From: Paludibacteraceae bacterium
GTDB taxonomy: Bacteria; Bacteroidota; Bacteroidia; Bacteroidales; Paludibacteraceae
Length of the DNA: 64,000 nt
Assembly (NCBI GenBank): GCA_017439235.1
Contig: JAFSJN010000001.1
Location: 1 to 64,000 of the forward strand
Reading direction: 5' to 3'
The notes beneath the pieces are model-generated. The model was given only the letters and a program-made list of their open reading frames with translations, searched no databases and was not told the origin of the DNA. Made by a program: the position numbers and the translations under genes. Positions within the stretch are counted from its first letter, which is position 1; each line of letters begins with the position of its first letter. Positions 30,801 through 46,888 of the stretch are shown here, piece after piece.

Positions 30801-33800
30801 CATTCGAATAGACGTATAGGTAGTTGAGACCATTGTGCATATAAGACGAAGACGTGCCTATATACGGGATATAGGATGCAGAACTACTATTTGTCTTATT
30901 GCCGGTTGTCCAACACGGAAGTTTTTTACCCGAACCGGTCTCATAGCCTTCGGCCTTGGAGAACGTGATAGTACCCATAGCCTCCGGAGTAACAGCAAGA
31001 CACGGAGTTTTGAAGGTAATAACCTGCCACGGAGATATACCACCCTCACATACAGTAGCAACTGCTACATAGTAGTCGGTCTGCTCCTTCAAACCGGTTA
31101 TCAACTTCGAGCGTACATCAATTGTGTCGTAGAAGACCACATGAGCCTGCCACAGACTGTCGTTCTTAACCAACGAATCCACATCCAGTAATGCTAACTG
31201 GTCTGCACTAAAGGCTGCGGTATCAACGGCTAACAACAACCATTCATTATCCGTGCGCAAACCGCTGCTAACACGTACCTGGCTGGCCGTCAAACCGGAA
31301 TAACTCGGTTTCGGCAGCGGGCAAGTAATCTTAATAATCGATACATCATCCAGATAGAAGTAGTCCGTTGCACCATAGCGTGTACGCCAAGCGAAGTATT
31401 TTGCATTTGCAGGAATCTTGCTCGCATACTGTTCTTCACTGAGGTCATAGGTATATTGCACACTTGTAGCCACACCTTTCACAGAGTCAAGAACGACGAA
31501 AGTGCTAAGATCTTCCGGATCAGTCATGACACCGCAAATCCACCAATATGATGTGCCTGCATACATATTAAATGTCACAGCCAGATCTTTCATGCTCTCG
31601 CAATCTATTTCCGGTGCCACTATATATGCCGGGTTATAGTCAGCGGATGTGGTATGGTAACCGTAAGCGCGATAGCAATTGTTACCCGAGCTGGAGTATG
31701 TAGTGCTCTTATATACGTACGGCAAATAACTTGTCGAAGTAGATTTGGCATTACCGGTGGTCCAACAAAGAATCTGGCTGGTAGCCTTATAGCTGGTAGT
31801 AGCATCCGTAATGCTCTCAAAGTCCTCTTTGTTCGGCTTGGTTGGATCCAACTTAACGCAACCGGTGATATACTCTGCGCTTGTCCATATGCTGTCGCAA
31901 TTCGGACGAATCGAGATAGTATACTTGGTCATCGGATTCAATCCGATAGCAGTAAATGCCTTACCGATAACGGTCGAGTCTGCTACAATGGTATCCGTGC
32001 CTTGCACTACATTAACATACCATTCGTCGTTGTCTGCCTTACCTTTCCATACTACGCTGATTGAGTTAGTAGTAATATCCGTAGCCTCGATGTTCCAAGC
32101 CTCGATACAACTATTCGGCTTAATGGAAACATTATCGATATAGATATCACTATTCATCTCCAGATTGTCACCCAAACCGGAAGTGAAGACGATATTGTTG
32201 TAAGCCAGCGTATAATTAGCCAGATCATAACGACGGGTGGTGAACACATTACCACCGTCCATATAGATGGTATCGAATGCTACGAAAGACGTCCAATCCT
32301 GAATGTCACCCATCGAGCCCACATACAATACACTCTTTGTAGATACACCGTACGAACGGGCGTCGAACGACAGAACCACTTTCGTCATATCCGCATCCAC
32401 ACCCGGCAGCATAGCCAAGTTAAGGTGCGTAGTCGATGTGGACCACAGCTCCAGCATGTTACCATCCTGTGCGCCGGTAGACGGCTTCAGAATCTTCGGA
32501 TAGCCGGTTGCACCGGAGATATAGTCAACTACTTGCCAGCAGTTGAAACCATCTTCATACGCACCGGTCGCATACGACTCGAAGTTCTCTACGAGCGGAA
32601 TCGGGAAGTTCTCCGGACACGGAGTCTTGAATGCACCCTCTACCCACCATGTTACTTCGGTGCCGCACATCGTACGAACGTACAAACTATAGGAAGTGTT
32701 GAAATCCAACTTACCGAAACCGAAGGTCGGATTTGTAGTAGCGTCGGTCCATGTCAAGGTATCAGCTACCAGAACCTTCTCCAGCTGTGCAATAATGTAC
32801 AGACTGTCTTCCAATTCACTAGTCGACAACGAGCCTTTAACAAGGGCAAATTCCCAAGTATTGGCATCCGACTTATTCCAACTGATTACTACAGAATCCG
32901 AAGTAGCCTCCGTCAGAATATTTACTGGCGGCAGACATTGTTCGATAGTCTCTACGGTCAAATCATCAATATAGTTAATGGTCGCTTTACCGTTTACATC
33001 ACCCCAAACGATAGCAATATAGCCTTCCGGACCGGTGTAGTTCAGGAAGTTAGCATAGCAAAGCGTATAGCCGGCCGATGCCAACGTGAAATCGCTCACG
33101 GGATTAAAGGTATTGATATCCATCGGGTTGGTCATCACACCCAGTATAGCATGTGCCTGAGCCGGAGTAGACGAACCGCTCAAATAGAACTTCACTTGCT
33201 TCGTCTCCAACGAATCGATAGGAGGCAACGTGATCCAGCTGTCGTTACCGTTAGCCTTCGATGCCATAGTCAAGGACGAACTACCGGAGTGAGCGTTGCT
33301 CGTTACTAAGTGCGGATATTCAGGATCGTTCGAGAATATACCGATAGTAGTCGGATAAGCAATAGTACCCTCACCGATGGTATACATCTGACCTGGCTTC
33401 TGCTCAAAGTCATAGGTCAACGGAACAGTCTTCTTTGAAGCTGTCGTTACAAACGGATAACGATACGACCATCCGGACTTGTTTTCGCCGTTCACAGCTT
33501 GAACGTATACATAGTACGGTTGGTTCCAATTGTGATCAGCCTCTAAAGCCTCAGTCTTATAGTAATTGGTCGTAACCGTCGTCTGGTCTACTATCTGAGT
33601 AGCAAGAGCCTTAGCGGGATCTACTTCCTCATTGGTAATCATGATGTTGTAGCTCGGAGCATCACCCTTCCAGGTAATCTCGGCCGAAACGTCGCGAGGA
33701 TTAACATAAACCTCGCTCGGCATCATTGCACCATTCTTGTACTCAACACTAATGTCGTCCAGATAGAAGATGTTCTTCTTATCAAAAGCGCTGGCAAAAG

Positions 33801-35169
33801 CCACAAAGTTGCCTTCACCCTTATACGAACTCAAATCTACTACATTCTCTACAAATGTCGAGGTACCCCATACGCTAACCGTATCAACGGGCACGAAGGT
33901 GGTAACATCCTCAGGATCAGTCATTACACCTACGATCAGACTGTGCGCATAGCTGCGACCTGTCGATTGATAAACTGTGCTCCAGAAACGTACTACACAT
34001 TGATTCAATGCAAAGTTCGCATTTGCTGCATCTGCCAAAGCGGGAGTAGCTACATATGCATACTTGTCGGCAGGAACGGGCTCAGTCATGTTGTTGGCCC
34101 CCGTAAATACGATACAGGTGGTACCGTCATGCGAATACTTGGCGCGGTCTTCCGCAGCAGTTTGGACATTGATAAACGGATTGAAATGACCCGTATTGTT
34201 GCCCCACGTCCACTCCGGATCACGACGAACCGTACCGGCCTCGTAAGGCATATCCGCTGCATAGTAGTACGGAATGTTCTTCGTAGCCTTTACACGGAAG
34301 CGGAACTGACCACCCTGCCCGGGGTCTTCGCTGTTCCACATACTGGTCTCGGCCTCACAGAGCGAACGCAGATAAGCGTAGTAATATTCACCCGAAACGA
34401 GTTCTACGTCTACGTTCTGCTGTAAACCGTCAACCAACTTATGGTAAACAACCATACCCGTCGAATCGGGCACTAAGTTCACCGTGTCAGGGTTGATGAT
34501 GCTCTTCGTCACGATTAACTCGTACTCGTTGGCATCCCAACTGGCCATCCAGGCAATGTTAACAATACCTGCACCCTTGTTGGTAATTACGATGTCATGC
34601 GGTACGGTACAAACCGGCGCCGAACGCAACTTAACGCTGTCCAGTACGATACCACGACCCAGATTATCCGTTCCCTCGAACGCAATCTGATACGTGGCGT
34701 TAACCTCAGGCAGTTCCAATTTTACCTTCTGCCAGTTGGCCATTGCATCACTGAACTCAGCCAATGTTTTCCAGTCGGCTTTCTGGTTCGTGCGATACAG
34801 CACACGAAGAGTGTCGCGGTCTGCCGTCCATTTGGGATTGGCGTACCAGAATGTCAATTCCGGCTGGTACACAATCTCAGGACGAAGGTCCATTACCTTA
34901 CTTACCAAGCGGGTAACATAACCTTGGGTCTCGCCCGAAGTGTTGCGCAAATACGCACGCTTCGAACCTTGCCAAATGGAAGCCGGCCATTGAGGTGTGT
35001 CCTCAATGCTCTCCACTGCCCACGGGTGTTCGCCATAGACAAACTCCTGCGTCCAGACAGTGTCCTGAATGCCATTCTCAAAGCCGTCATCAATAAGGAT
35101 AACCTGAGCCTTGAGACTTACTGTCACAGCCATCACGGCTGCCAGCAAACAGAGAATAGTTCTTCTCAT
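24883..35169 (-). CDS. Giant modular surface protein, repeated jelly-roll and FN3 modules
   Basis: 3,428 residues (about 370 kDa) with a signal peptide (about 1-21, ending SLKA). The body is a chain of about eleven similar modules of roughly 280-330 residues. Each has a MAM/choice-of-anchor-J-like jelly-roll with a core motif such as GVMTDPEDLSTFVVLDSV, YFYLDDVSI-type strand ends, and a following FN3-like stretch with Y-x-V-x-W and Y-x-L/V-Y-V-R-T. The core motif G-x-M/V-T-D-P recurs at least nine times. The C-terminus is a short tail (YIIREGVWTDATGRRVRMKK) rather than the longer type A domain. The likely role is a surface adhesin or glycan-binding fibre. A predicted promoter lies at 35277-35308 and a terminator follows. 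Internal repeats make assembly and length in this region worth checking. Confidence 0.85.
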   Translation of the reverse strand: MRRTILCLLAAVMAVTVSLKAQVILIDDGFENGIQDTVWTQEFVYGEHPWAVESIEDTPQWPASIWQGSKRAYLRNTSGETQGYVTRLVSKVMDLRPEIVYQPELTFWYANPKWTADRDTLRVLYRTNQKADWKTLAEFSDAMANWQKVKLELPEVNATYQIAFEGTDNLGRGIVLDSVKLRSAPVCTVPHDIVITNKGAGIVNIAWMASWDANEYELIVTKSIINPDTVNLVPDSTGMVVYHKLVDGLQQNVDVELVSGEYYYAYLRSLCEAETSMWNSEDPGQGGQFRFRVKATKNIPYYYAADMPYEAGTVRRDPEWTWGNNTGHFNPFINVQTAAEDRAKYSHDGTTCIVFTGANNMTEPVPADKYAYVATPALADAANANFALNQCVVRFWSTVYQSTGRSYAHSLIVGVMTDPEDVTTFVPVDTVSVWGTSTFVENVVDLSSYKGEGNFVAFASAFDKKNIFYLDDISVEYKNGAMMPSEVYVNPRDVSAEITWKGDAPSYNIMITNEEVDPAKALATQIVDQTTVTTNYYKTEALEADHNWNQPYYVYVQAVNGENKSGWSYRYPFVTTASKKTVPLTYDFEQKPGQMYTIGEGTIAYPTTIGIFSNDPEYPHLVTSNAHSGSSSLTMASKANGNDSWITLPPIDSLETKQVKFYLSGSSTPAQAHAILGVMTNPMDINTFNPVSDFTLASAGYTLCYANFLNYTGPEGYIAIVWGDVNGKATINYIDDLTVETIEQCLPPVNILTEATSDSVVISWNKSDANTWEFALVKGSLSTSELEDSLYIIAQLEKVLVADTLTWTDATTNPTFGFGKLDFNTSYSLYVRTMCGTEVTWWVEGAFKTPCPENFPIPLVENFESYATGAYEDGFNCWQVVDYISGATGYPKILKPSTGAQDGNMLELWSTSTTHLNLAMLPGVDADMTKVVLSFDARSYGVSTKSVLYVGSMGDIQDWTSFVAFDTIYMDGGNVFTTRRYDLANYTLAYNNIVFTSGLGDNLEMNSDIYIDNVSIKPNSCIEAWNIEATDITTNSISVVWKGKADNDEWYVNVVQGTDTIVADSTVIGKAFTAIGLNPMTKYTISIRPNCDSIWTSAEYITGCVKLDPTKPNKEDFESITDATTSYKATSQILCWTTGNAKSTSTSYLPYVYKSTTYSSSGNNCYRAYGYHTTSADYNPAYIVAPEIDCESMKDLAVTFNMYAGTSYWWICGVMTDPEDLSTFVVLDSVKGVATSVQYTYDLSEEQYASKIPANAKYFAWRTRYGATDYFYLDDVSIIKITCPLPKPSYSGLTASQVRVSSGLRTDNEWLLLAVDTAAFSADQLALLDVDSLVKNDSLWQAHVVFYDTIDVRSKLITGLKEQTDYYVAVATVCEGGISPWQVITFKTPCLAVTPEAMGTITFSKAEGYETGSGKKLPCWTTGNKTNSSSASYIPYIGTSSSYMHNGLNYLYVYSNVSSSTSYDGAYAIMPELNVDDISKYQVNFWARTSTSTAATYHDNLIVGVVTDPSDLNTFVVVDTLKLSHTAYEPFTVSLEDYQGDYMGNKGRYIMFMTETGVSGATAYGYAYMSEISVTKIPTCRPVTEFKVDSVAEDMAMISWKQYSDSYRMMMSDEEVAEKDKATYDKWLIDSVLTKTDSILIEGLKPNTHYYIYAQALCDGGDSSAISMAYAHILTDCPFVKGFDVPYFTDFDHNSATGTGKRPDCWDGVQLTFDTVGTTQSYPYVYSIKASSVSEPYVLYMYSYGYWNNTSKKFTTNTKSIAVAPKVKGNLAEYMVSFYAKKTGTTDLYGEKLLLGYVTDATQKGMDSTFVKITDVEITTATQSPYQVILGDYVTSLPDGARLALKADWTKQGFDTTALTATKSFYAYFYLDNFKIGMPPSCFPPTLELGNTSLYTADVNIVPAKAWNDKWQIAVVPDSIYSKAGYDAAGHLASDTVRIVDADSANFVISGLTPGTLYWLYARTVCGGEDGNSAWTDLAVSIRTKYYFKDSYYFGFQKSEGWDYCQGSTSTTYWVNPAIEVGYEGGSATTSYTSYYPYCMANTTSSVYAYGPREASDPVNAALRWQASSSYWGGYAVFPGVDEAHDRSFEFKVRCGYGSYNSTKDTIGISTNYACDIEVGMIDKNKGFETYQVLSTVNLPVIPKVKGGLTAANDWFWTQITLDLDSTTVANKQMVLRMPKPADTSTRYIHFDDVTLGAPKGYGLVAISKVEMEATKANVSWDDLGGPWNLYITKENGKKTDTIASYLNLTATSQEVTGLSPQSKYTAVLVAVNAPSDTKFKVNDSRDFRTPCLPMEPDAYGEFFWSFDDPNDTEPNDILAGAATDTAYLKPSCFTTATNYTGAYSNGYQWLWQSKGHDYYSTLGNPTDAYNHREIGYADSYGSLRIWSTSTYVSETVKTWIALPELNCDLDTMMIEFWGRCLANQDETASTNAGKIISTTYLSGNYSTKLVVGTLTDPHDFSTLEVIDTVTYVPAAGLTTSTLVSSDPTGNRYWQKFQLPLAGTSGKYIVLFQPAYGLFFVDNLKIAPVGDNLFAPSGTMTSNVTANSATLSWTAKHPSIQTVVVVTEQDGKTEVLRDTVAGGVMTYTAENLNPASAYQWYVYQTNGTVNTLSAGGQMFYTECVAIAPDYKNGFELADGWRILPAQTSETYKQTLCWTYENAGSSAVSTYTYNYVNATYVYSHKGDYAVRLYANGTTYQTYAAMPAIEDISAYDTLQVNFWMRPGYASSSTGKISTQYTLGSTAATKEYYYSKSVIVGTMTDPMDASTFVPIDTVTYKGTLATTDVVNEGNEYLFQQKKVALTGAQGKYVAFMATLWAKGAENKSTYDYVWIDDVSFSAIQHCEAPEEMEASDISATNATLTWKAPEGADKYIVQVSTDYTFTEDTAFVFNDTVYQNSFVVDSLSAYTQYVWRVRTICAEDLGESEFSQNAAFTTARQPFFIENFGATNLDADWTFATNPAAKVIDSTNVEFSGTNSTTYGYRRVTSAQGLAAGHYAVLFYSSSSATTLDYNYYWMMSPVISLDTTTAAHLSLDLALTGCSGTTTISNIPAVEGSMADDYTFMIVISDDGGKTYKKENIIGIWNNTLAAGHQLRDIPFAGMNLRYDLSKFAGKNIRIAFYREADTYKSATPYSCAVHFDNIRVNYYDNVESDAQACQYQDIDELGFYIDGDKAEAGAKVYKRIEKADNYYAANNGYHDSIYTLNVEYIEVAETIVTDTICEGESYSDVNFTAKTRAGVYRRKLQSVESCDSLITLYLNVAPIIRTDAQEQTICPGEAYTWNGKQYNRAGIYRDTLISMYSCDSIETLVLSYYSDEDTLLVNTTIETNDLPYTYMDINHPYIAGQDPISYAAGTAAGTYMDTVYVQGTNCAAVLVHTLVINQSSGSSLEEILDEASKNGTQKIIYRDNLYIIREGVWTDATGRRVRMKK

Positions 35170-35938: not shown

Positions 35939-37903
35939 ATGAAAGGTAATATTCATGTAACCTCGGAAAACATCTTTCCGGTCATCAAAAAATTCCTCTA
36001 CAGCGACCACGAGATCTTCCTCCGTGAACTCATCTCCAACGCCGTAGACGCCACACAAAAACTCAAAACCCTCGCCTCCGTCGGCGATGCCAAAGGCGAC
36101 CTGGGCGACCTGCGCGTACGCGTCACTATTGATAAGAGTAAGAAAACGCTCACCGTCTCCGACCACGGCGTAGGCATGACCTCCGATGAGGTCGACCGCT
36201 ACATCAACCAGATAGCTTTCTCCGGCGCCGAAGAGTTCGTCAATAAGTACAAAGACAAAGCAGAAGCCATCATCGGCCATTTCGGACTGGGCTTCTACAG
36301 CGCCTTCATGGTAGCCGATAAAGTGGAGATTTTCTCCCTCAGCTATCTGCCCGATGCTAAGGCCGTTCACTGGTCCTGCTCCGGCGAGACAGAGTTCGCT
36401 ATGGAGGACACCGTTAAAGCCGAACGAGGCACCGACATCGTCCTGCATATCAACGACGAGTTCAGCCAATACCTCGAGGACGCTACCGTCGAGTCCTTGC
36501 TCAAGAAATACTGCAAGTTCCTGCCTGTGGAGATAGCTTTCGGTATGAAGAAAGAATGGAAAGACGGCAAACAGGTGGAGACCGGCGAGGAGAACATCAT
36601 CAATAATGTCAATCCCGCATGGACACGCAAACCGGCAGACCTGACCGAGGAGGATTATAAGACCTTCTACCACGAGCTCTACCCCACCCAGATGGACGAG
36701 CCGCTCTTCCATATCCACCTCAATGTCGACTATCCTTTCCATCTGACCGGTATACTCTATTTCCCGCGTATCAAGAACAACCTCGACATCCATCGCAATA
36801 AGATACAACTCTATTGCAATCAGGTCTTTGTCACCGACGAGGTGGAGAATATCGTGCCCGAGTACCTGACCCTGTTGCACGGCGTCATCGACTCGCCCGA
36901 TATACCGCTTAACGTGTCGCGTTCTTACCTCCAGTCTGACAATAATGTCAAGAAGATTTCCAGCCACATCACCAAGAAGGTGGCTGACAAATTGGCAGAC
37001 ATGTACAAGAACGACCGCGAGGACTTTGAGCATAAATGGGACGACATCAAACTCTTCATCCAGTTCGGTATGCTCAGCGATGAGAAGTTCTACGAACGCG
37101 CTATCGGCTTCGCCCTGCTCAAGAACCTCGAGGGCAAATATGCTACTCTCGACGACTATCGTACGCAGGTCAAAGAGGCGCAGACCGATAAGGACGGCAA
37201 CCTCGTCCTCCTCTACACCCAGGATGCCGATGCTAACTATACTTATATAGAACGCGCACGCGAGAAAGGCTACGATGTCCTGCTTATGGATGGCGAATTG
37301 GATGTACACTTTATGTCTATGCTCGAGCAAAAGAACGAGCACCTGCGCTTCGTTCGCGTAGATAGCGACCTCATCGAAAACCTCATCCGCAAGGAGGATA
37401 AGAAAGACGAACCTACTCTCTCTACCGAGCAACAGGAAGGCTTACGCAAGGCCGTGCAGAACGTGCTCAACGACCCGAACTATTATATCGAGTTCCAGGC
37501 CGCAGCCGCCGATGCCCTGCCTATGTTCCTCACCCAGAATGAGTTTATGCGTCGTATGAAAGAGATGTCGCGCCACCAGCAGGGTATGTCGTTCTACGGC
37601 AATATGCCCGACCAATATACGCTCGTGGTCAACACCGCTCACCCGCTCATCCAAGACCTCGTCGCTAAGATGACGTCCGAGGAAGTAGAAGAAGTGGTCG
37701 AGAAGAAGGAACCTAACACGTCTGGCGAACCAAGTACGTCTGGTACCTCCGAACCCCGGGAGACCGTCACCAAGACCGTCTACAGCCTCGCCGGCGAAGA
37801 CGAACGCTTGCATCAACTCTTGGATATCGCCCTCTTGGCCTCCGGCCGCCTCAAAGGCGAATCCCTCGCCCGCTTCGTCAACCGCAGCGTCAGCCTGCTG
37901 TAA
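35939..37903 (+). CDS. htpG: Molecular chaperone HtpG (Hsp90)
   Basis: 654 residues. The N-terminal GHKL ATPase shows FLRELISNAVDA (E and N of the ATP site), DHGVGMT, and GHFGLGFYSAFMVA; the middle domain contains the catalytic-loop region NVSRSYLQSD. Near the C-terminus there is an unusual Ser/Thr/Gly/Pro-rich insert (about 590-612, NTSGEPSTSGTSEPRE) that is probably a flexible linker. HtpG is an ATP-driven dimeric chaperone for stress-sensitive proteins. The gene stands alone, between two repeat-rich noncoding stretches. No convincing promoter with 20-nt spacing could be found in the 500 nt upstream. Confidence 0.97.
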   Translation: MKGNIHVTSENIFPVIKKFLYSDHEIFLRELISNAVDATQKLKTLASVGDAKGDLGDLRVRVTIDKSKKTLTVSDHGVGMTSDEVDRYINQIAFSGAEEFVNKYKDKAEAIIGHFGLGFYSAFMVADKVEIFSLSYLPDAKAVHWSCSGETEFAMEDTVKAERGTDIVLHINDEFSQYLEDATVESLLKKYCKFLPVEIAFGMKKEWKDGKQVETGEENIINNVNPAWTRKPADLTEEDYKTFYHELYPTQMDEPLFHIHLNVDYPFHLTGILYFPRIKNNLDIHRNKIQLYCNQVFVTDEVENIVPEYLTLLHGVIDSPDIPLNVSRSYLQSDNNVKKISSHITKKVADKLADMYKNDREDFEHKWDDIKLFIQFGMLSDEKFYERAIGFALLKNLEGKYATLDDYRTQVKEAQTDKDGNLVLLYTQDADANYTYIERAREKGYDVLLMDGELDVHFMSMLEQKNEHLRFVRVDSDLIENLIRKEDKKDEPTLSTEQQEGLRKAVQNVLNDPNYYIEFQAAAADALPMFLTQNEFMRRMKEMSRHQQGMSFYGNMPDQYTLVVNTAHPLIQDLVAKMTSEEVEEVVEKKEPNTSGEPSTSGTSEPRETVTKTVYSLAGEDERLHQLLDIALLASGRLKGESLARFVNRSVSLL

Positions 37904-38565: not shown

Positions 38566-38640
38566 TCAAAAAAAGAAACAAAACCGCATCGCGATTCTGT
38601 TCCTTAGCGAGCACCCCACCCCTCCAAGGCTGACTACCAT
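38566..38640 (-). CDS. Possible 24-residue peptide
   Basis: A short reverse frame (MVVSLGGVGC, then SLRNRIAMRFCFFF) begins about 30 nt after the predicted start of transcription from the reverse promoter at 38677-38708. It ends just before a T-rich tract on that strand. It matches no family I know. It could equally be a small noncoding RNA, and its coding status is doubtful. Confidence 0.2.
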   Translation of the reverse strand: MVVSLGGVGCSLRNRIAMRFCFFF

Positions 38641-38676
38641 GAGGTTGTAGGTTGATATAGTGCTGCTTGTTGCATA

Positions 38677-38708
38677 CAAAAGTACCAAAAACTTTTCACT
38701 CCCGCAAA
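38677..38708 (-). promoter_or_regulatory. Reverse-strand promoter in the noncoding stretch
   Basis: TTTG (38705-38708), 20-nt gap and TACTTTTG (38677-38684) on the reverse strand. It fires away from the forward promoter at 38785, so the two form a divergent pair 76 nt apart. Confidence 0.6.
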
Positions 38709-38784
38709 CGTTTTTCCGTTTTGCTAACCCAAGATTGCAAAATCGAGATTTCTTTCCGAAACAAAATTTTTCACCTCTAAAAAC

Positions 38785-38815
38785 TTGCACATGTCAAAAA
38801 AAAGCCGTACCTTTG
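38785..38815 (+). promoter_or_regulatory. Promoter of the structured RNA
   Basis: TTG (38785-38787), 20-nt gap, TACCTTTG (38808-38815). The 31 nt match the promoter at 46950-46980 at all but a few positions. Confidence 0.75.
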
Positions 38816-38821
38816 CACTCG

Positions 38822-39088
38822 ATTTTGATAAGGTCTCCGACAGACGCTCACGAAGCGCGTCTGGTGGAGAGAGCGGAGGCAGAAGTTGTCCGTCAATTTA
38901 ACGGAGTGGTATTGACCATTACAACCTTCTTGCCGAACGCGATAGAAAGTACCAACGGTTAAGACACTACTTTCACTATGACAGGGTCAATCTTTTATAG
39001 TTCATTTGCGACTTGGTCGCCGACTACGGGATTACTCCCTCATGTGCACGCGCTATCTATATCATAAGGTAGTGCGTGTTGCTTTTTT
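38822..39088 (+). ncRNA. Candidate structured RNA or regulatory leader of about 267 nt, unknown class
   Basis: It begins about 7 nt after a good promoter and ends at a hairpin with six T. Helices visible by eye: 38834-38838 with 38866-38870, enclosing 38841-38847 with 38857-38863 (CAGACGC/GCGTCTG); a long branched stem 38873-38889 with 38921-38940 (GGCAGAAGTTGT against ACAACCTTCTTGCC, one bulge on each half), which holds two hairpins 38890-38893/38901-38904 and 38907-38910/38915-38918; 38942-38951 with 38968-38979; GCGAC/GTCGC at 39008-39020; and the terminator. No long open frame fits it. It does not look like tRNA, tmRNA, RNase P RNA or SRP RNA by their conserved motifs. It is either a stand-alone small RNA or a leader that controls read-through into the nuclease and giant-protein genes. 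Confidence 0.6.
39044..39088 (+). terminator. Terminator at the end of the structured RNA
   Basis: ACGCGCTATC (39048-39057) pairs with GGTAGTGCGT (39068-39077) including two G-U pairs, followed by GTTGC and six T (39083-39088). Confidence 0.7.
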
Positions 39089-39101
39089 GTAACCAGCAAA
39101 C

Positions 39102-39211
39102 AAAACTAACTAACAATATTAACTAAAATCACAGTTTTATGAGCAATAATCGTGCCTCGTAGGGGCTAAGACGATTAAAACTATTTTTCGCTTGTTTGCT
39201 GATGGCTGGTG
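39102..39211 (+). repeat. Left copy of a duplicated leader/signal-peptide region
   Basis: The 32-nt untranslated leader (from AAAACTAACTAACAATATT on), the ATG, and the signal-peptide codons are nearly the same as at 40317-40398. The left copy has an in-frame 27-nt insertion after the second codon. Confidence 0.85.
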
Positions 39212-39216
39212 AGGGA
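39139..39216 (+). pseudogene. Relic start of an InlB-repeat-type surface protein gene
   Basis: ATG at 39139 begins MSNNRAS and stops with TAG at 39160-39162. Still in the same frame, 39175-39207 encodes LKLFFACLLMA, the signal peptide of the 2,177-residue protein 1.2 kb downstream, and then a TGA follows. It is therefore a broken 5' fragment of a paralogous gene, not a short gene. It was left when the rest was deleted or replaced by the nuclease gene. Confidence 0.75.
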
Positions 39217-39255
39217 TGAGGGCGAGATGGTTTAAACTCATAACGGATAATAAGA

Positions 39256-40311
39256 ATGGCACAGGAGATATACAAAAATATCGCTATACTACCTGAGAGT
39301 CAGCAGTTATATGCTGACGTGTGCCATATTATTGACGACATACGTACACGCGTTGCGGTCTATGTCAATTCGGAAGTATGTATGACTAATTGGCGTATCG
39401 GAACGCGTATCAAAGAAGATGTGCTTTACAATAAGCGTGCGGAATATGGCAAACAGGTTATTAAGAATCTGGCTGCACAACTGACCGAACGTTATGGTAA
39501 AGGTTGGAGTGAAAAGACATTGAGACATTGTCTCCGCGCTGCAGAGACTTTTACTGAAGCAGACATTGTCTCCGCAGTTCAGAGACAATTTAGTTGGACA
39601 CATCTAAAGTCGGTAATGTATCTAACAGACCCGCTTGCTCGCCAATTCTACATGCAGATGTGCTATTATGAACATTGGGACACACGCACATTGGATGAAA
39701 AGATTGATAGTCAGTTATACGAGCGCACGGCTATCAGCCGCCGACCGGAAGAGGTGATAAAACGGACATTAAATGATACTGCTGAAAAGAACTTACTTGT
39801 GCCGGATTTGGTGTTCCGAAGTAGTTATTTTCTGGATGCATTAGGACTGCCGGATAGTTTCTCCGAAAAGGATTTAGAGAGTGCTATTATTTCGCAGATG
39901 CAAGAGTTTCTGGCAGAAATGGGCAGTGATTTTGCATTCTTGGCTCGTCAAAAACGAATAACAATAGATGCCACCGACTATTATATTGATTTGTTATTTT
40001 ATCATAGAGGATTACGAAGATTAGTAGCAATTGATCTAAAATTAGGTAAGTTTAAACCTGAGCACGAGGGACAAATGCGACTCTATCTGCGTTATCTTAA
40101 TCAAAAGGAGCGACGTGAAGGAGAGGGGTCGCCGATAGGTTTGATTTTATGCAGCGAAGGTAATACGGAGCATATTGAGTACTTGATGTTAGATGAGGAG
40201 AGTCCGATAAAAGTAGCGCAATACTACACCCAACTGCCGAATAAGCGAATGTTGGCAGAGAAACTGCAACGTGCAATAGCTATCGCAAGAGAGCATTACA
40301 CAGAGAAATGA
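39256..40311 (+). CDS. YhcG-type PD-(D/E)xK nuclease domain protein (DUF1016)
   Basis: 351 residues. The N-terminal half is the DUF1016 helical domain (NWRIGTRIKE, YGKQVIKNLAAQLTERYGKGWSEKTLRHC read as short motifs: IGTRI and GWSEKTLR), with FSWTHLKSVM in the middle. The C-terminal half is the nuclease fold: D245 in DYYIDLLFYH and D260-x-K262 in AIDLKLGKF form the PD-(D/E)xK site, so it should be active. Family members are common in accessory regions, near restriction systems or alone, and are thought to act on DNA or in defence; the exact role is not settled. Both sides carry copies of the same leader sequence, so the gene was probably inserted by recombination. No own promoter is visible. 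Confidence 0.88.
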   Translation: MAQEIYKNIAILPESQQLYADVCHIIDDIRTRVAVYVNSEVCMTNWRIGTRIKEDVLYNKRAEYGKQVIKNLAAQLTERYGKGWSEKTLRHCLRAAETFTEADIVSAVQRQFSWTHLKSVMYLTDPLARQFYMQMCYYEHWDTRTLDEKIDSQLYERTAISRRPEEVIKRTLNDTAEKNLLVPDLVFRSSYFLDALGLPDSFSEKDLESAIISQMQEFLAEMGSDFAFLARQKRITIDATDYYIDLLFYHRGLRRLVAIDLKLGKFKPEHEGQMRLYLRYLNQKERREGEGSPIGLILCSEGNTEHIEYLMLDEESPIKVAQYYTQLPNKRMLAEKLQRAIAIAREHYTEK

Positions 40312-40316
40312 AGGTA

Positions 40317-40398
40317 AAAACTAACTAACAATATTAACTAAAATCACAGGTTTTATGAGAAAATTAAAACTATTTTTCGCCTGTCTGCTGATGGCCGT
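40317..40398 (+). repeat. Right copy of the duplicated leader/signal-peptide region
   Basis: Intact partner of 39102-39211. It begins 6 nt after the nuclease stop and runs into the functional start of the 2,177-residue gene. Confidence 0.85.
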
Positions 40399-43300
40399 CC
40401 TCAGCATCGGGCAAGTGTGGGCAGGTGAAACAACGTACACGTTTACAGCTAAAACATGGACAGCAACAAGTGGTGGCTCTAACGCCGACTGGACGAGTGG
40501 ACAAGATGGAGCTGGATTCTCAAATAATGGTATTCAGGTAACCGCAAATAGCACTGGAGCGAATGGTACATCGCCTATTTCGTTCACCAACGTAACAAAG
40601 GTAGAGTGCATTTATAACACGAACAAAAGTGCCGGAGCCGGTTCCTTTGATGTAAAAGTAGGTAATAATAGTGCACAAAATGTAACCTGTGAATATAGCG
40701 GCAGCAGTGATGGTAGAACGGCTAATTTTAAAGCTACCGTAAACTACGCCACGGCACAAACGGGTAATGTGAATATAAAAATTAACACAACCACAAATAG
40801 TATCTATCTTGTAAGTGTTACTATTACCACTTCCGATAGTGGAGACACTCCGAGCAAGCAAGATCTCGGAGCTGATGACCTGAAATGGAGTGCTGATGCA
40901 GCAACAGTTACCATTGGCGGTAACAACAATGTATACCCGACATTAACACTCAAGCAAGGTCTTTCTGTGACTTATGAAAGCACAGCTACCACTGTTGCAG
41001 AAATAGGCGAGACGAGTGGCACTATCACTCTCAAAAAGGCCGGTACAACAACCATTAAAGCTGTCTTTGCGGGTGATGACACTTACAATGCAAAGACTGT
41101 TTCTTACGATTTGACTGTTAATCCGGCTCCGCTGGTTCCGATTGTAGGTGCTGCAGTTGATGTTTTGACAGCAGCAAATTTCACTGCAACGGGTTCTTCA
41201 TATACGGCATTTTCAAATGTTCAAGCGGCGAATGAGGGACATTCAGATGCTGTATATTTAGGTAAAACTGCTAAAAATGGCAACAATATCCAGATTAATA
41301 GTATTTCTTCCGGTAATGCTGGACGTGAAATTGCTACGTCTGAATCAGGAGGTACAATCAAGCGTTTAGAGGTTACATGGGGGAGTGGCAACAATGATAG
41401 TCGTAATGTGATGATATACGGATCTCATAACGCTTATGACGCAACAGAAACCTCAAAGACGGTTACGAATTTAGGGTCGATTACTTATCATACTGGTGAT
41501 GTTTCGGGCTATGTCGATATTGATGACTCAGAAGAAGCATTTGAATATATCCAGATAACGGCAAGCGGCGCAATGTATGTCAGCGAAATGCGCATCAGTT
41601 GGATGCCTGCGGAAAAATATGCAATAAACATAGCTTCTGTAACCAACGGTACACTCGTTGTTAAGGATGGCGATGATGCAATTACCAGTGGTGCAGAATT
41701 TACAGAAGGGAAGACTCTCACAGTTATTGCTACTCCGAATGATGGTTTCAAATTGGATGGTATCAAAGTTATTGAAACCGGTTCTAATCCTGAGAATGAT
41801 GTAACAAGTACAGTTCTTGCCGGCACGACGCTTACTGTTCCCGCATATGCTGTTACCATTTCTGCTGAGTTCTCAGCAAACGTAGCTCCGTTCGCAACTC
41901 TTACATTGAGTGAAATCGGAGAAGAAACTGTTTATTACGATGATGACTCCAAACGCGAAGGCGACATTGTTTCTCTGCCTCTCACAGCAGCATCTTGCAG
42001 TAAGGTATTTGTAGGATGGGATCCTAATGTGGATTGTGCGACTGAGCCGACATATGCTCCAGGTGCAGACTTTACTCTTGGAGCATCAGCTTCCAATAAG
42101 TTGTACGCAGTATATGCAACTCCGATTGTAGATACTGAATCTGAGCCTGTTTTGGCACAAACATTGCAATATGACACATGGACTTATTCTGGAACAACTA
42201 CGAACAAGAGTTCGTATCGTCTGTTCGGTAATGGTGCTTATGTAGAGTCAGCTGAGTTTGATTTGAGCCTCTTGGCAAAAGTAAAAGTGTTTGGTGGTAC
42301 TTTTGGAGGTCAAGACACATACAAAACGGGTACTATTGGTGACGGTACAAATACTTGGAAATCGATTGAGCTTACCGGAAACGGAAATGCAAAAGAACAT
42401 GAATTTATTGAGGGTAATGCGTTGTCTGGGAATGGTAAATTGTATGTAACGAGTACCTGCGGAAATGGTACAGATAATGGTCTCCGTATCTCGAAAGTAG
42501 AGATTTATACTTATCCTGTCACATATGCGAATTATTCCACAGCATGTATGGCTCAAGTAGCTACTCCGACGTTCTCGCCGGCAGCAGGTACTTATACTGC
42601 TGTTCAGAACGTAACGATTTCTTGCGCAACTTCCGGTGCAACAATCTATTACACGACAGATGGCACAACTCCTTCTACAAGTTCGACGTTGTACGGAAGT
42701 GCTATTACCGTTGATGCCAACATGACCATCAAGGCTATTGCTGTTAAGAGCGAAATGGCTAACTCTGCAGTTGCAACAGCAGAATACGAAATCAACCTGC
42801 CGTTGAGTACAGTAGATGCTATCTTTGCAAAAGCAAAAGAAGTTAAGAGCACGGAAACAGATGTAACTGTGACATTTGGTAACTGGGTTGTTTCGGCAAC
42901 AAAGGATGCTAATGCTTATGTAACAGATGGTACAAAGGGCTTCATTATTTATGCAAATAATCATGGTTTCAATGTAGGTGATGTTCTTAGTGGAACAGCT
43001 AATTGCAAGGTGAAGATGTATGCCGGTTCTGCAGAACTGACCACATTGACTTCTGAAACAGCCGGCTTGACTGTTACTCCGAATGGTTCTGTAGATGCAG
43101 CAACTAAGACTATTGCTGATTTGGATAGCATCAATACCGGTGCGCTGGTTGTATTGAACGGTTTGTTCTACAATGGTTCGAAATTGGTAGATGCTTCCGA
43201 GAATGAGATTACTCCTTATAGTACGTTCTACTCTGAAATGGCAAGTAAACTGGAAGAGAATCATGTATATAACATTACAGGTATCTATGTTCAGTACTAC

Positions 43301-46300
43301 GCTACCAAGGAGATTGCGCCGCGTGCAGCTGCTGATATCGTTGATGCAACAGAGTACGTGAAAGTATCGTTTGATGCAAACGCTAATGACGCAACAGGTG
43401 ATCTTCCTGAGGATGTAACAGGTCTCATTGCAGGACATAATACCTATACAATTCCTACCGAGAAACCGCTGACGCGTGATGCCTATCTCCAGATTGGTTG
43501 GAATACCAATAAGGATGCAACCGAGGCATTGGAAGGCAACTTGACCAATATTACCACCAATACCACCCTCTATGCTATCTGGACTGCGAAAGAGACTTGT
43601 GCTATCACGTTCTATGACAGAGGTAATGTACATGCCGAAAAGGCTCCGTATCAGGGTGTTGAATACACCATCGATGTCGCTCCTTCAGAATTACCGAGCG
43701 GATACACGTTCGCTGGTTGGAGTGCTGACCCGATTACAACCGAAGTTACTAGCGCAGAGTTGGTAACCACTATTACTCCCGCTTCTGCAACAATGAGCCT
43801 CTATGCCGTCTATACTCGTTCGGAAGGCGAAGAAGTAATCACTTACAACAAGGTTACTGAGACTCCGACAGATTGGGCAGGCAAGTACCTGATTGTAAGC
43901 GAAGATTTCAATGTTGCTTTCGATGGTTCGTTAGAAACTCTGGATGCAGCAGATGATGTTATTGAAGTTACTATCAACGAAGGTGTTATTGCCGGTTCGG
44001 CTAAAGTTAATGCTGCTGTGTTCACTGTTGCCGCTGCAACAACGAATTACAGCATTCGTTCAGCAAGTGGTTTCTATATTGGTCAGACTGCTAATAGTAA
44101 TGGTTTATTGAGTAGTACAACTACTGTTTACACCAATACACTTGCGATAAGTGAAGGTGATGCCGTTATTACATCCAGTGGTAATCCTACATTGCGTTAC
44201 AATAAAGCATCAGATCAAAACCGCTTCCGTTACTACAAGAGTGGTCAGCAACCTGTTCAACTTTACAAACAACATGTAACACTCCCGACCGTTTATTACA
44301 CTACAGCTCCGGTTAGCCGCTACACTGTTTCGTTCAACCTCGCAGAGGATGAGCAAGGTTCGTTCAGCGACATCTCGGTTGTTCAAGGTGAGGATGCTAC
44401 TCTGCCGGCAGCAGTTCCGACCAAATTGCACTATACATTCAACAAGTGGAAAGATGCCAATAATAATGAATACGCAGCTGAGGCTACTATTGAGAATGTA
44501 ACATCGAACATCGTTCTGAGTGCTACTTGGACGGAAAATAGTAAGGCTAATGTGACATTCGATGCTAATGGCGGATCTGATGTTGCTGCCATCAATGATG
44601 TTTACGAAGGTGAGACTTACACGCTGCCTGACGCTCCGGCGTACGGAACGAATATCTTCGGCGGTTGGAAAGTTGGTGACAATGTATATGCTGCCGGTAC
44701 AGAAATGACGATGAGCACTCCTGCGGATCCTATTGAATATGTAGCTCAATGGACTGTAGTTCCTGAGTTCAACGCCGGTTATTGGTTCAAGGTAACCGAT
44801 GCATCGACTCTGGCTGCAGGTCAATTCGTAATGATTGTTGCCGAAGATGATGATTATGCATTAGGTGCTACTCAGAATAGCAATAACCGTTCTGCAGATG
44901 CCATCAGCAAGACGGCAACTCCCGCTGCAGCATACTACGCAACCGCTCCGGCTATCCTGCTTCTTCAGAATGGTGTAGCAGACGATCAGTTTGGTCTCTA
45001 TGTTACAAATGGCGAGACAAAAGGTTATCTGTATGCAGCAGCATCCGGAAGCAACCACATGAAGACGCAAGAAGCTCTTGATGTCAACGCTTCATGGAAA
45101 ATTGCTATTGAAAATGGTGTGACTACAGTTATTGCGACAGGTTCTGAAAACAGAAATAACTTACTCTACAATAGCGGAAGTGTTATCTTTAGTTGCTATA
45201 CAGGTACAAGCAGTTCTATCAAGAACGTAGCAATCTATCGTTATGAAGAAAGCAACAAACTGCAGGTAAGTTACGCAGGTAAGGGAACCGAGCACGTACA
45301 AGGTGCATTGGTTGACGCAGGCGGAAGCGTAACGCTGGCTGCTGCTCCTGCTGCTCCGGAAGCAGAGGATGTAACGTACTCGTTCGTAAGCTGGGTAGTT
45401 GATAGCGAAGAGTATGCTCCGGCTGCTGAGATCGCGAACATCACCGAAAATAAGGTAGTATATGCTAAGTGGAACGTTGTAACGAATCCTGAGGCAGAGG
45501 AAATCACTATTCCGGTTGAGGATGTAGTAGCAAGCGATATTCACGTTAAAGAGAATCAGACGGTAACGGTTGAGGTGACAGAAGATGTTACCCTGGGTAA
45601 TTTGGATCTGGAGAATGGTGCTATCCTTGAGTTTGAAGTTGCAGCAGGTAAGACGGTTGAGGCTAATGACCTTATCCTCCGTTCAAGTTCGGCTTCCAAC
45701 GGTGTAGAAGGTATGTCCAGCCAAGCTCCTGTGATGCCAGTAGTCAATGGTGTCTTAGCTCTTGAGATTCAACTTCGTCCGGATGAGATGAACGCAGAGA
45801 ACTCCAGCTTGTGGTACTGTATCGCAGCTCCGTTCGATGTAGATATCAATAACGGTTTCGAGTGGGTTCACCCGAATGGAAGCAGAACACCGATGGTTCA
45901 TAATGTGGACTTCCAAATCTTCGCATACGACGGCGCTCGTCGTGCAACAGGTATCAGTGGTTGGCAGCGTACTAGCGGTACGATGAAGGCCGGTGTGGCT
46001 CACTTCATCGGTTTCGACAACGCAAGACCAAACCAGAACACGATTCGTCTGACGGCTAAAACTAATACCGTTGCTCCTGCTACAGAAATCGCTCTGGGTT
46101 CGTATCCTGGTGCTACGGAATACCAGAACTGGAACGGTGTAGCTAACCCGACCCTGCAGTATATCGGCATTAACAAGGATATCGTAGCCTTCGATTATGG
46201 TATCCAGGATTACAACACCTACGCTAATACTGCTTACAACTACTTCGTAGGTTCGCCGTTCTTCATCCAGCAAGACGGTGGCTCGATAGCTGTTGATCAT

Positions 46301-46888
46301 AATGATCGTGGTGGTGCAATTCACGCTCCGAAACGTGTAGAAGATAAATTAGAGTACTGCGTACGTATCAACGCTGCAGGCGCAAAGAGCTTCGAGAGCC
46401 AGATGTATGTTCGCGCTTCCGAGACGGCTTCCAGTGAATACGAAGAAGGTCATGACTTGGCATCGCAGAGCAGCACAACGCCAAAGTACGGTGCACGTAT
46501 CTGGTCTGAGAACTACAACATGCGTCTGGGTATTGAGGAAGCTCAGCTCACTAACGGCAATGCTTCTTACGTTCTCGGTATCGCTACTCCCGCTGCAGGT
46601 GAGTACACAATCAGCGTAGCTGCTCCTAAGGAGAATGCTACTCTCTATCTCACCTACAACGGCAGCATCATCTGGAACTTGAGTAACGGCGCTTACACAA
46701 TCGACCTGCCGAAGGGTATTACTTCCGGCTACGGCCTGGTAATGCAGGCTAAGGCTCCGCAAGTTGGTACCGACATCGAGAGTCAGACCGCTATCGTCAA
46801 CGGCGTAGAGAAAGTTGTCATCAACAACACCATCTACATCCTCCGCGACCAGCAGATGTACGACCTAACCGGTAAGATGGTTAAGTAA
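40355..46888 (+). CDS. Large surface protein with InlB-type and chitobiase-like repeats
   Basis: 2,177 residues; signal peptide 1-23 (KLKLFFACLLMAVLSIGQVWA). Domains in order: a jelly-roll-like N-terminus, an Ig-like segment (about 170-265), another beta domain, 'bacterial repeat' (about 420-510) and InlB B-repeat-like segments at about 515, 1000, 1080, 1320, 1397 and 1634 (motifs V-x-F-x-A-N, L-x-x-A-x-W), a chitobiase/hexosaminidase C-terminal-like repeat at about 730 (TIYYTTDGTTPSTSS), and further beta domains. The tail (IYILRDQQMYDLTGKMVK) matches that of the 3,428-residue protein. It is likely exported and displayed on the surface. It lies 43 nt after the nuclease gene with no promoter of its own. 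Confidence 0.82.
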   Translation: MRKLKLFFACLLMAVLSIGQVWAGETTYTFTAKTWTATSGGSNADWTSGQDGAGFSNNGIQVTANSTGANGTSPISFTNVTKVECIYNTNKSAGAGSFDVKVGNNSAQNVTCEYSGSSDGRTANFKATVNYATAQTGNVNIKINTTTNSIYLVSVTITTSDSGDTPSKQDLGADDLKWSADAATVTIGGNNNVYPTLTLKQGLSVTYESTATTVAEIGETSGTITLKKAGTTTIKAVFAGDDTYNAKTVSYDLTVNPAPLVPIVGAAVDVLTAANFTATGSSYTAFSNVQAANEGHSDAVYLGKTAKNGNNIQINSISSGNAGREIATSESGGTIKRLEVTWGSGNNDSRNVMIYGSHNAYDATETSKTVTNLGSITYHTGDVSGYVDIDDSEEAFEYIQITASGAMYVSEMRISWMPAEKYAINIASVTNGTLVVKDGDDAITSGAEFTEGKTLTVIATPNDGFKLDGIKVIETGSNPENDVTSTVLAGTTLTVPAYAVTISAEFSANVAPFATLTLSEIGEETVYYDDDSKREGDIVSLPLTAASCSKVFVGWDPNVDCATEPTYAPGADFTLGASASNKLYAVYATPIVDTESEPVLAQTLQYDTWTYSGTTTNKSSYRLFGNGAYVESAEFDLSLLAKVKVFGGTFGGQDTYKTGTIGDGTNTWKSIELTGNGNAKEHEFIEGNALSGNGKLYVTSTCGNGTDNGLRISKVEIYTYPVTYANYSTACMAQVATPTFSPAAGTYTAVQNVTISCATSGATIYYTTDGTTPSTSSTLYGSAITVDANMTIKAIAVKSEMANSAVATAEYEINLPLSTVDAIFAKAKEVKSTETDVTVTFGNWVVSATKDANAYVTDGTKGFIIYANNHGFNVGDVLSGTANCKVKMYAGSAELTTLTSETAGLTVTPNGSVDAATKTIADLDSINTGALVVLNGLFYNGSKLVDASENEITPYSTFYSEMASKLEENHVYNITGIYVQYYATKEIAPRAAADIVDATEYVKVSFDANANDATGDLPEDVTGLIAGHNTYTIPTEKPLTRDAYLQIGWNTNKDATEALEGNLTNITTNTTLYAIWTAKETCAITFYDRGNVHAEKAPYQGVEYTIDVAPSELPSGYTFAGWSADPITTEVTSAELVTTITPASATMSLYAVYTRSEGEEVITYNKVTETPTDWAGKYLIVSEDFNVAFDGSLETLDAADDVIEVTINEGVIAGSAKVNAAVFTVAAATTNYSIRSASGFYIGQTANSNGLLSSTTTVYTNTLAISEGDAVITSSGNPTLRYNKASDQNRFRYYKSGQQPVQLYKQHVTLPTVYYTTAPVSRYTVSFNLAEDEQGSFSDISVVQGEDATLPAAVPTKLHYTFNKWKDANNNEYAAEATIENVTSNIVLSATWTENSKANVTFDANGGSDVAAINDVYEGETYTLPDAPAYGTNIFGGWKVGDNVYAAGTEMTMSTPADPIEYVAQWTVVPEFNAGYWFKVTDASTLAAGQFVMIVAEDDDYALGATQNSNNRSADAISKTATPAAAYYATAPAILLLQNGVADDQFGLYVTNGETKGYLYAAASGSNHMKTQEALDVNASWKIAIENGVTTVIATGSENRNNLLYNSGSVIFSCYTGTSSSIKNVAIYRYEESNKLQVSYAGKGTEHVQGALVDAGGSVTLAAAPAAPEAEDVTYSFVSWVVDSEEYAPAAEIANITENKVVYAKWNVVTNPEAEEITIPVEDVVASDIHVKENQTVTVEVTEDVTLGNLDLENGAILEFEVAAGKTVEANDLILRSSSASNGVEGMSSQAPVMPVVNGVLALEIQLRPDEMNAENSSLWYCIAAPFDVDINNGFEWVHPNGSRTPMVHNVDFQIFAYDGARRATGISGWQRTSGTMKAGVAHFIGFDNARPNQNTIRLTAKTNTVAPATEIALGSYPGATEYQNWNGVANPTLQYIGINKDIVAFDYGIQDYNTYANTAYNYFVGSPFFIQQDGGSIAVDHNDRGGAIHAPKRVEDKLEYCVRINAAGAKSFESQMYVRASETASSEYEEGHDLASQSSTTPKYGARIWSENYNMRLGIEEAQLTNGNASYVLGIATPAAGEYTISVAAPKENATLYLTYNGSIIWNLSNGAYTIDLPKGITSGYGLVMQAKAPQVGTDIESQTAIVNGVEKVVINNTIYILRDQQMYDLTGKMVK

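Follow-up and report, generated by a model that had tools for sequence, protein, structure and literature searches.

A candidate genus-specific family of RNA leaders ahead of variable accessory genes in Paludibacteraceae, split in one member by an inserted dispersed repeat

Between an Hsp90-type gene (35939–37903) and a gene for a DUF1016/YhcG nuclease of the PDDEXK type (39256–40311, + strand; PADLOC candidate PDC-S02), the genome of a Paludibacteraceae bacterium carries a strongly folding element (38785–39088), which raises the question of what kind of object it is and what it might do for the genes behind it. Positions refer to the window, by which we mean the whole stretch of 64,000 nucleotides analysed (GenBank assembly GCA_017439235.1, contig JAFSJN010000001.1, positions 1 to 64,000), from a genome that is 77% complete at 1.49 Mb and was compared with a set of 178 genomes of its genus. 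The nuclease gene is followed by a gene for a giant surface protein of 2177 aa (40355–46888, + strand), and both neighbours are as the initial annotation had described them; another large protein, of 3428 aa and with fn3 and MAM domains, is encoded on the opposite strand at 24883–35169. That annotation took the element for an undescribed structured RNA of 267 nt, with its own promoter and terminator and no protein frame. Comparison among genomes indicates that a genus-specific family of RNA leaders has one member in the window, and that a dispersed repeat has inserted into this member and split it. An RNA family lacking an Rfam entry is thus present as supposed, but its boundary, its anatomy and its presumed absence of coding had all been drawn wrongly.

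The promoter had been recognised correctly: a TTG (−33-like, 38785–38787) and TACCTTTG (−7-like, 38808–38815) make up a promoter of Bacteroidetes type on the + strand (38785–38815). What follows is not a single 267-nt unit but two objects, a repeat inserted at 38832–38942, here called module A, and a leader consisting of the promoter (38785–38815) and 38945–39088. When the element alone was used as a query against 101 genomes, 41 matched, all of its own genus, and the matches fell mainly in two separate parts, one within 38832–38950 and the other of about 28 nt at 38946–38973. One structured RNA of 267 nt including 38832–38942, as first drawn, would accord with the fold of the whole of 38822–39088 (MFE −91.2, z −4.53; none of 200 shuffles equally low); the halves also fold alone, with z −4.09 for that of module A and z −3.71 for the other. 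Against it, module A and the leader hairpin P1 are found apart in relatives and differ in strand bias, and the distance between promoter box and P1, which is 141 nt in the window, is 23–59 nt in the other 54 leader copies and too short there for module A. Among the copies read, module A therefore lies inside the leader only in the window, and we consider the single RNA scarcely tenable. The branched stem with two inner hairpins that had been attributed to it does fold strongly, but belongs to the dispersed repeat between promoter and leader.

Module A (38832–38942, + strand) is a dispersed structured repeat in the leader's 5′ UTR, with one further copy in its own genome, up to eight query matches in a relative, and 35 distinct copies in the loci examined, two of which are the window. 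In an alignment of 24 of the 29 references prepared from these 35 copies, 11 of the 22 predicted pairs show changes on both sides with pairing kept. Base-paired RNA tolerates G.U and not A.C, a distinction that is not expected of an inverted repeat in DNA. The aligned copies contain four G.U and three A.C cells, covariation without RNA-strand bias, and because of this, unlike the leader helices, module A is better seen as a DNA-level palindrome, with no sign of RNA-level constraint. An ORF that runs over it (38660–38962) was set aside because copies of module A differ by frame-breaking indels and pair-preserving changes. REP/BIME-type elements are dispersed palindromic repeats with a cognate transposase, RAYT (Y1_Tnp). 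Module A resembles them in being multi-copy, palindromic, present in both orientations and preserved in structure across copies, and differs in its length of some 110 bp, its two-domain fold and its frequent position beside tRNA genes; no Y1_Tnp (RAYT-type) gene was found in its own genome at 77% completeness. Palindromic candidate RNAs of 80–132 bp, mostly or entirely in Bacteroidetes, are described in one published source (PMC8040213). At 9 of 24 scanned loci a copy of module A lies within a few nucleotides of the start or end of a gene for tRNA or tmRNA (L013, L015, L018, L019, L020, L022, L023, L024 with two, including a tmRNA, and L033), and it is the 5′ end of the RNA gene that module A adjoins in all but L022. 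In the window module A ends directly before P1, and near position 1500 of L175 its end adjoins, by eye, a boxA-like motif.

The leader family was read from 55 distinct copies, fewer than all P1 places; three loci of leader-like appearance (L203, L204 and L206) stand outside this count. The usual order is a TAnnTTTG box, P1 with the core GTACCAACGGTTAAGACACTAC, a leader ORF whose ATG comes 3–9 nt behind that core, and lastly a terminator. All 55 copies have a TAnnTTTG box no more than 150 nt before P1, and 54 have the form TTG-N17-23-TAnnTTTG no more than 200 nt before it. P1 is a near-invariant hairpin, in the window with a 7-pair stem and a 16-nt loop, CCAACGGTTAAGACAC (38945–38974, + strand), and the model R1 scores 38939–38982 at 50 bits. 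The loop may resemble a tRNA D-arm, a likeness that we do not use as evidence. The earlier judgement that known RNA classes do not fit was borne out: at gathering score Rfam gave no family at the element (only a tRNA elsewhere in the window), with two sub-threshold matches at E ≤ 10 in 38600–39300, and release 15 at the gathering threshold gave none at the leader in the window or at six further loci.

With up to three mismatches allowed, the P1 pattern was found at 65 places, spread over 50 of the genus's 178 genomes; 55 of these places match exactly, and the reversed control matched once. One of these matches (L205 in G019) was discarded as chance, lying inside an open frame of 257 codons, and the gapless pattern misses three genomes (G044, G212 and G033) whose loop is one base longer; with both corrections, 52 of 178 genomes carry P1. 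Outside the genus the leader was seen on only one contig, from G710 of the sister genus g212, which is the contig of L101 and already among the 55 copies. Three further pattern matches outside the genus (2–3 mismatches, in 393 genomes of the order, where the reversed control gave 14) were rejected, lying in open frames of 276, 548 and 330 codons. Among 250 genomes from the family, the model matched weakly in g207 and g219, and these matches were likewise rejected because they lie in open segments of 153–331 codons. Stretches of named contigs that match P1 (n = 58) are all labelled Bacteroidales or Paludibacteraceae, several with rumen, reticulum or gut as the source; viral contigs had no match to the pattern, and plasmid and phage collections had none to the element by blastn. 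A single genome, G059, has up to four P1 places, successive copies each having their own leader layout. On its contig C13, L203 looks by eye like a divergent copy that follows the point where the upstream gene seems to end; the 90 nt inspected ahead of P1 contain no TAnnTTTG box. The closest pair of the 65 places (L086, G190:C9) consists of two divergent leaders about 0.9 kb apart, which enclose a gene of 204 aa whose DNA resembles the Resolvase-type genes of L062 and L102.

The covariation that the initial annotation had proposed looking for among homologues is present, in that pairing survives changes on both sides in P1, in the terminator and, for leader groups 1 and 2, in a second hairpin, P2. 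In comparisons with shuffles that count sequences rather than events and are inflated by the relatedness of the copies, the covariation score of P1 is 0.189 against 0.111 ± 0.012 (0 of 500 as high), four of its eight pairs have changes on both sides against 2.5 expected (3 of 500 shuffles), its 12 further pair types are not above chance (11.3 in shuffles; 201 of 500), and P1, P2 and terminator of group 1 together have seven pairs with changes on both sides against 2.6 (0 of 500). Cells with G.U or U.G outnumber those with A.C or C.A by 19:1 in P1, 11:2 and 8:0 in P2, and 37:3 and 22:1 in terminators, counts of cells and not of independent events, to which base composition contributes; at one pair of P1, G.U is seen in copies of all three groups. 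Because its helices favour G.U over A.C, unlike module A, the leader looks constrained as RNA, on the + strand. The comparison of G.U with A.C is, more generally, a cheap aid for separating RNA-level from DNA-level covariation. In the window a P2-type hairpin, GCGAC/GTCGC, is predicted to fold inside the leader ORF (39008–39020, + strand). In a test over a fixed 48 nt, which reaches into the terminator in copies with a short ORF, the P2 region came out more stable than the mean of its shuffles in 49 of 53 copies (average z −1.47); a consensus P2 was not obtained within the window's own group, group 3.

The claim that the element has no protein frame does not hold. An ORF on the + strand at 38978–39067 encodes 29 aa (MTGSIFYSSFATWSPTTGLLPHVHALSIS), with its TAA stop in the terminator loop, and 53 of the 55 copies have a counterpart, an ATG standing at most 12 nt after the P1 core against 16% in nearby stretches; L057 and L061, the two others, lack an ATG at this position and have a loop longer by one base. 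Leader ORFs of at least 18 codons occur in 51 of these 53 copies against 19.1 expected from shuffles, and span 18–31 codons, leaving short ORFs of 8 and 13 codons in L139 and L082; of the two remaining frames, one stays open over at least 18 codons in 3 of the 53 and the other in 27. In group 1 the pN/pS ratio is 0.44 (14 codons, 18 sequences) and entropy by codon position is 0.57/0.36/0.95, while other sets give pN/pS of 0.16–0.75, one pair being without synonymous change. These figures suggest that the leader ORF is probably translated. The group-1 consensus peptide is M-[NK]-Q-T-T-x-Y-Q-[YH]-F-T-[TS]-G-L; neither it nor the peptides inspected by eye contain a run of codons for one amino acid, and four leader peptides had no match in Pfam or NCBIfam. 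The peptides differ strongly between groups, P1 staying near-invariant.

The annotated terminator stands: it is intrinsic and possibly an attenuator, with a hairpin at 39046–39079 and a T-run to 39088 on the + strand. By script, a terminator was found in 47 of the 53 ORF-bearing copies, and in all 47 the stop codon ends at −18 to +22 nt relative to the first base of the stem, at +2 in 18 of them. A ribosome at the leader stop would thus overlap the terminator stem. Pairing between P1 and the 3′ arm of the terminator, which would make an antiterminator and which CACTAC/GTAGTG of the window had suggested, was rejected as not above shuffles over 50 copies (5.16 pairs, compared with 5.33 in shuffled arms).

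Genes behind the leader mostly follow its direction. When the same length cut was applied to both strands, the first ORF of at least 90 aa within 1 kb downstream proved co-directional at 46 of 50 loci, the exceptions being L066, L139, L097 and L109; upstream, too, ORFs more often share the leader's strand (38 of 52; 38:14). The kinds of cargo comprise DUF1016/YhcG, BRO-N, ORF6N, RhuM, KilA-N, HepT/MNT, ParE, PIN, AAA, recombinase and giant surface-protein genes. A domain scan of 59 of the 78 downstream ORFs, leaving out farther second ORFs and using a lower length cut on the + strand, gave, among the 25 of 45 families listed, DUF1016_N (7), Resolvase (5), BRO-N (4), ORF6N, RhuM, HepT-like, ParE and AAA_14 (3 each), KilA-N and NTP_transf_2 (2 each) and surface domains such as CHB_HEX_C_1 (3). 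The PADLOC candidates PDC-S02, S13, S05 and S22 match up to 7, 6, 6 and 5 of these 59 ORFs. Resolvase-family genes account for 5 of the 59 downstream ORFs and for 5 of 49 upstream ORFs scanned (from 51, the window and one duplicate left out). Where the next + ORF lies within 600 nt, 13 of 46 loci have a TAnnTTTG box of their own before it (14 with L103, where the box is inside the ORF as called) and 33 have none; in 13 of these 33 the next ORF starts no more than 82 nt from a fixed point, P1+115. The window, too, has no TAnnTTTG between P1+115 nt and the ATG of its DUF1016 gene. As separate observations, a boxA-like TCTTTGACA occurs 90–600 nt after P1 in 9 of the 55 loci against 0.76 expected (L081, L066, L096, L069, L075, L077, L099, L105 and L107), and a search for GATCTTTGACATANTG that tolerated one mismatch found it in 28 of 41 genomes, at several loci (read among L161–L187) directly ahead of promoters that belong to AAA, toxin-like or BRO-N genes.

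Loci with similar DNA upstream can carry different cargo. Thirteen loci that form one upstream cluster by single linkage fall into several downstream clusters and families, among them DUF1016 (L072, L099, L110), Resolvase (L103), PIN (L105), AAA_14, there encoded on the opposite strand (L066), a member of the BRO-N DNA cluster (L087) and, as judged by its signal peptide, a surface protein (L054); upstream of L103 and L110 lies a protein of about 640 aa with a sub-threshold helix-hairpin-helix match. Conversely, DUF1016 genes related in DNA to that of the window have differing upstream genes and stand behind leaders of group 1 (L116), group 2 (L110, L099) and group 3 (the window). From these two patterns together, the same upstream DNA with different cargo and DUF1016 behind three leader groups, it follows that leader and cargo reassort. 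In the window the surface gene's 5′ UTR, together with the beginning of its signal peptide, is present in a first, degraded copy (39102–39206, + strand; repeats D1, D2 and D6) and a second, intact one (40317–40395, + strand), which flank the DUF1016 gene on both sides, with no further copy in the assembled part of the genome at E ≤ 0.01; in L060, L068 and L142 the leader stands directly before a surface gene. The simplest history would be that the leader once fed the surface gene directly and that the nuclease gene was placed between them later.

The stand-alone RNA or leader of the initial annotation is thus better supported in its second half. Comparison establishes the family with its layout, covarying helices, selection on the ORF, contact of stop codon and terminator, a co-directional gene and differing cargo, and on these grounds we favour, at a probability of roughly 0.55, a cis-acting attenuator coupled to the leader ORF and placed ahead of slots for variable accessory genes. 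Transcription would start behind 38785–38815, and the RNA would fold P1, with the leader ORF starting 3–9 nt after its core, carrying a second hairpin and ending at the intrinsic terminator, ahead of a variable accessory or giant surface-protein gene. The terminator would act as the attenuator: a ribosome translating the leader ORF would cover its 5′ arm, so that polymerase reads through, and without a ribosome it would fold and transcription would stop. P1, with its near-invariant loop within reach of an initiating ribosome, could be where a signal is sensed or a factor binds, and so gate translation of the leader; a single signal would then control a regulon of unrelated cargo genes, and the leader may be a shared switch. 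A bolder form of this reading is tentative, and we regard it as rather unlikely. In it P1 would be the receptor of a ligand or protein and gate translation of the leader peptide at standardised 'cargo slots', chromosomal places at which interchangeable defence-like, toxin-antitoxin, recombinase or giant surface genes answer to a single RNA switch; the slots would form an integron-like expression platform that owes its unity to control by RNA and not to assembly by an integrase.

The main rival to attenuation is a stand-alone small gene, with a transcript of about 150 nt for a peptide of 20–30 aa or a dual-function sRNA, and an ordinary terminator, the accessory genes merely lying behind it. 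Its own promoter and strong terminator, the purifying selection on the peptide, the promoter-like box before 13 of 46 downstream genes, the nearest ORF on the other strand in 4 of 50 loci and the multiple P1 places of G059 all accord with such a gene. It fares less well with the divergence of peptides between groups around a near-invariant P1, with the 46:4 orientation, and with the 13 of 46 loci in which an ORF close to P1+115 has no promoter-like box and would therefore depend on readthrough; we judge the small gene unlikely, while taking it more seriously than the other alternatives.

The remaining rivals concern P1. It could be a processive-antitermination signal of nut, put or ops type, through which polymerase is modified to pass the terminator and very long surface genes. 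A near-invariant hairpin near the transcription start, with a terminator behind it and at some loci genes several kilobases long, would suit this, as would the boxA-like TCTTTGACA downstream at 9 of 55 loci; yet that motif comes after the terminator and occurs upstream of accessory genes generally, a leader ORF would not be expected, and no NusG paralogue tracks with P1: of the 50 P1-matched genomes, which are incomplete, 31 yielded one copy of PF02357, 3 (G007, G034, G187) two or more, and 16 no copy. We think this improbable. Even less probable is a DNA recombination or insertion site, attI-like or for a serine recombinase, by which cargo is exchanged and to which the RNA features would be incidental. 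The cargo that varies behind similar upstream DNA, the Resolvase-family neighbours on both sides and the inverted ends of P1, about 28 bp in all, speak for such a site, and against it stand the 19:1 ratio of G.U to A.C in P1, counted in cells that are not independent events, the promoter, ORF and terminator that keep their places around P1, and the loci read, where a P1 in the same orientation beyond the cargo is seen only as a further leader.

If the leader is a shared switch, unrelated accessory genes, from phage-defence candidates, toxins and recombinases to giant surface proteins, would obey one signal read by a hairpin. This would offer a handle on when such genes turn on, a sequence tag with which to find new ones, and, in the near-invariant RNA loop, a bait for its binding partner. 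In searches of openly licensed literature we recognised no published account of this leader RNA and found no match to the P1 core as text; sORFs are mentioned in one source (PMC7366714).

An integron expression platform consists of a fixed promoter and site with variable cassettes. The leader is similar in standing at a fixed place with different cargo genes behind it, and differs in that no flanking site surrounds the cargo (65 P1 places, 50 genomes) and that the conserved feature behaves as RNA. Riboswitches and protein-binding leaders, such as those of r-protein genes or of the LoaP/RfaH/UpxY type, share with it a conserved hairpin in the 5′ leader followed by a terminator; here, by contrast, there is no Rfam match, no correlate among NusG paralogues, and a selected ORF is included. 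The closest likeness is to leader-peptide attenuators (Escherichia coli pyrBI; compare trp and tna), in which the translating ribosome prevents formation of the terminator, and which have the same succession of promoter, short leader ORF, terminator stem meeting the stop codon, and gene. The present family differs from them in having neither a run of codons for a single amino acid nor an antiterminator, as sought between P1 and the 3′ arm, in cargo that consists of interchangeable accessory and surface genes rather than one pathway, and in the near-invariant hairpin directly before the start codon of the leader. An attenuator built on a leader ORF is accordingly of a known kind; what is new in this candidate is the near-invariant hairpin ahead of the start codon, together with interchangeable accessory cargo.
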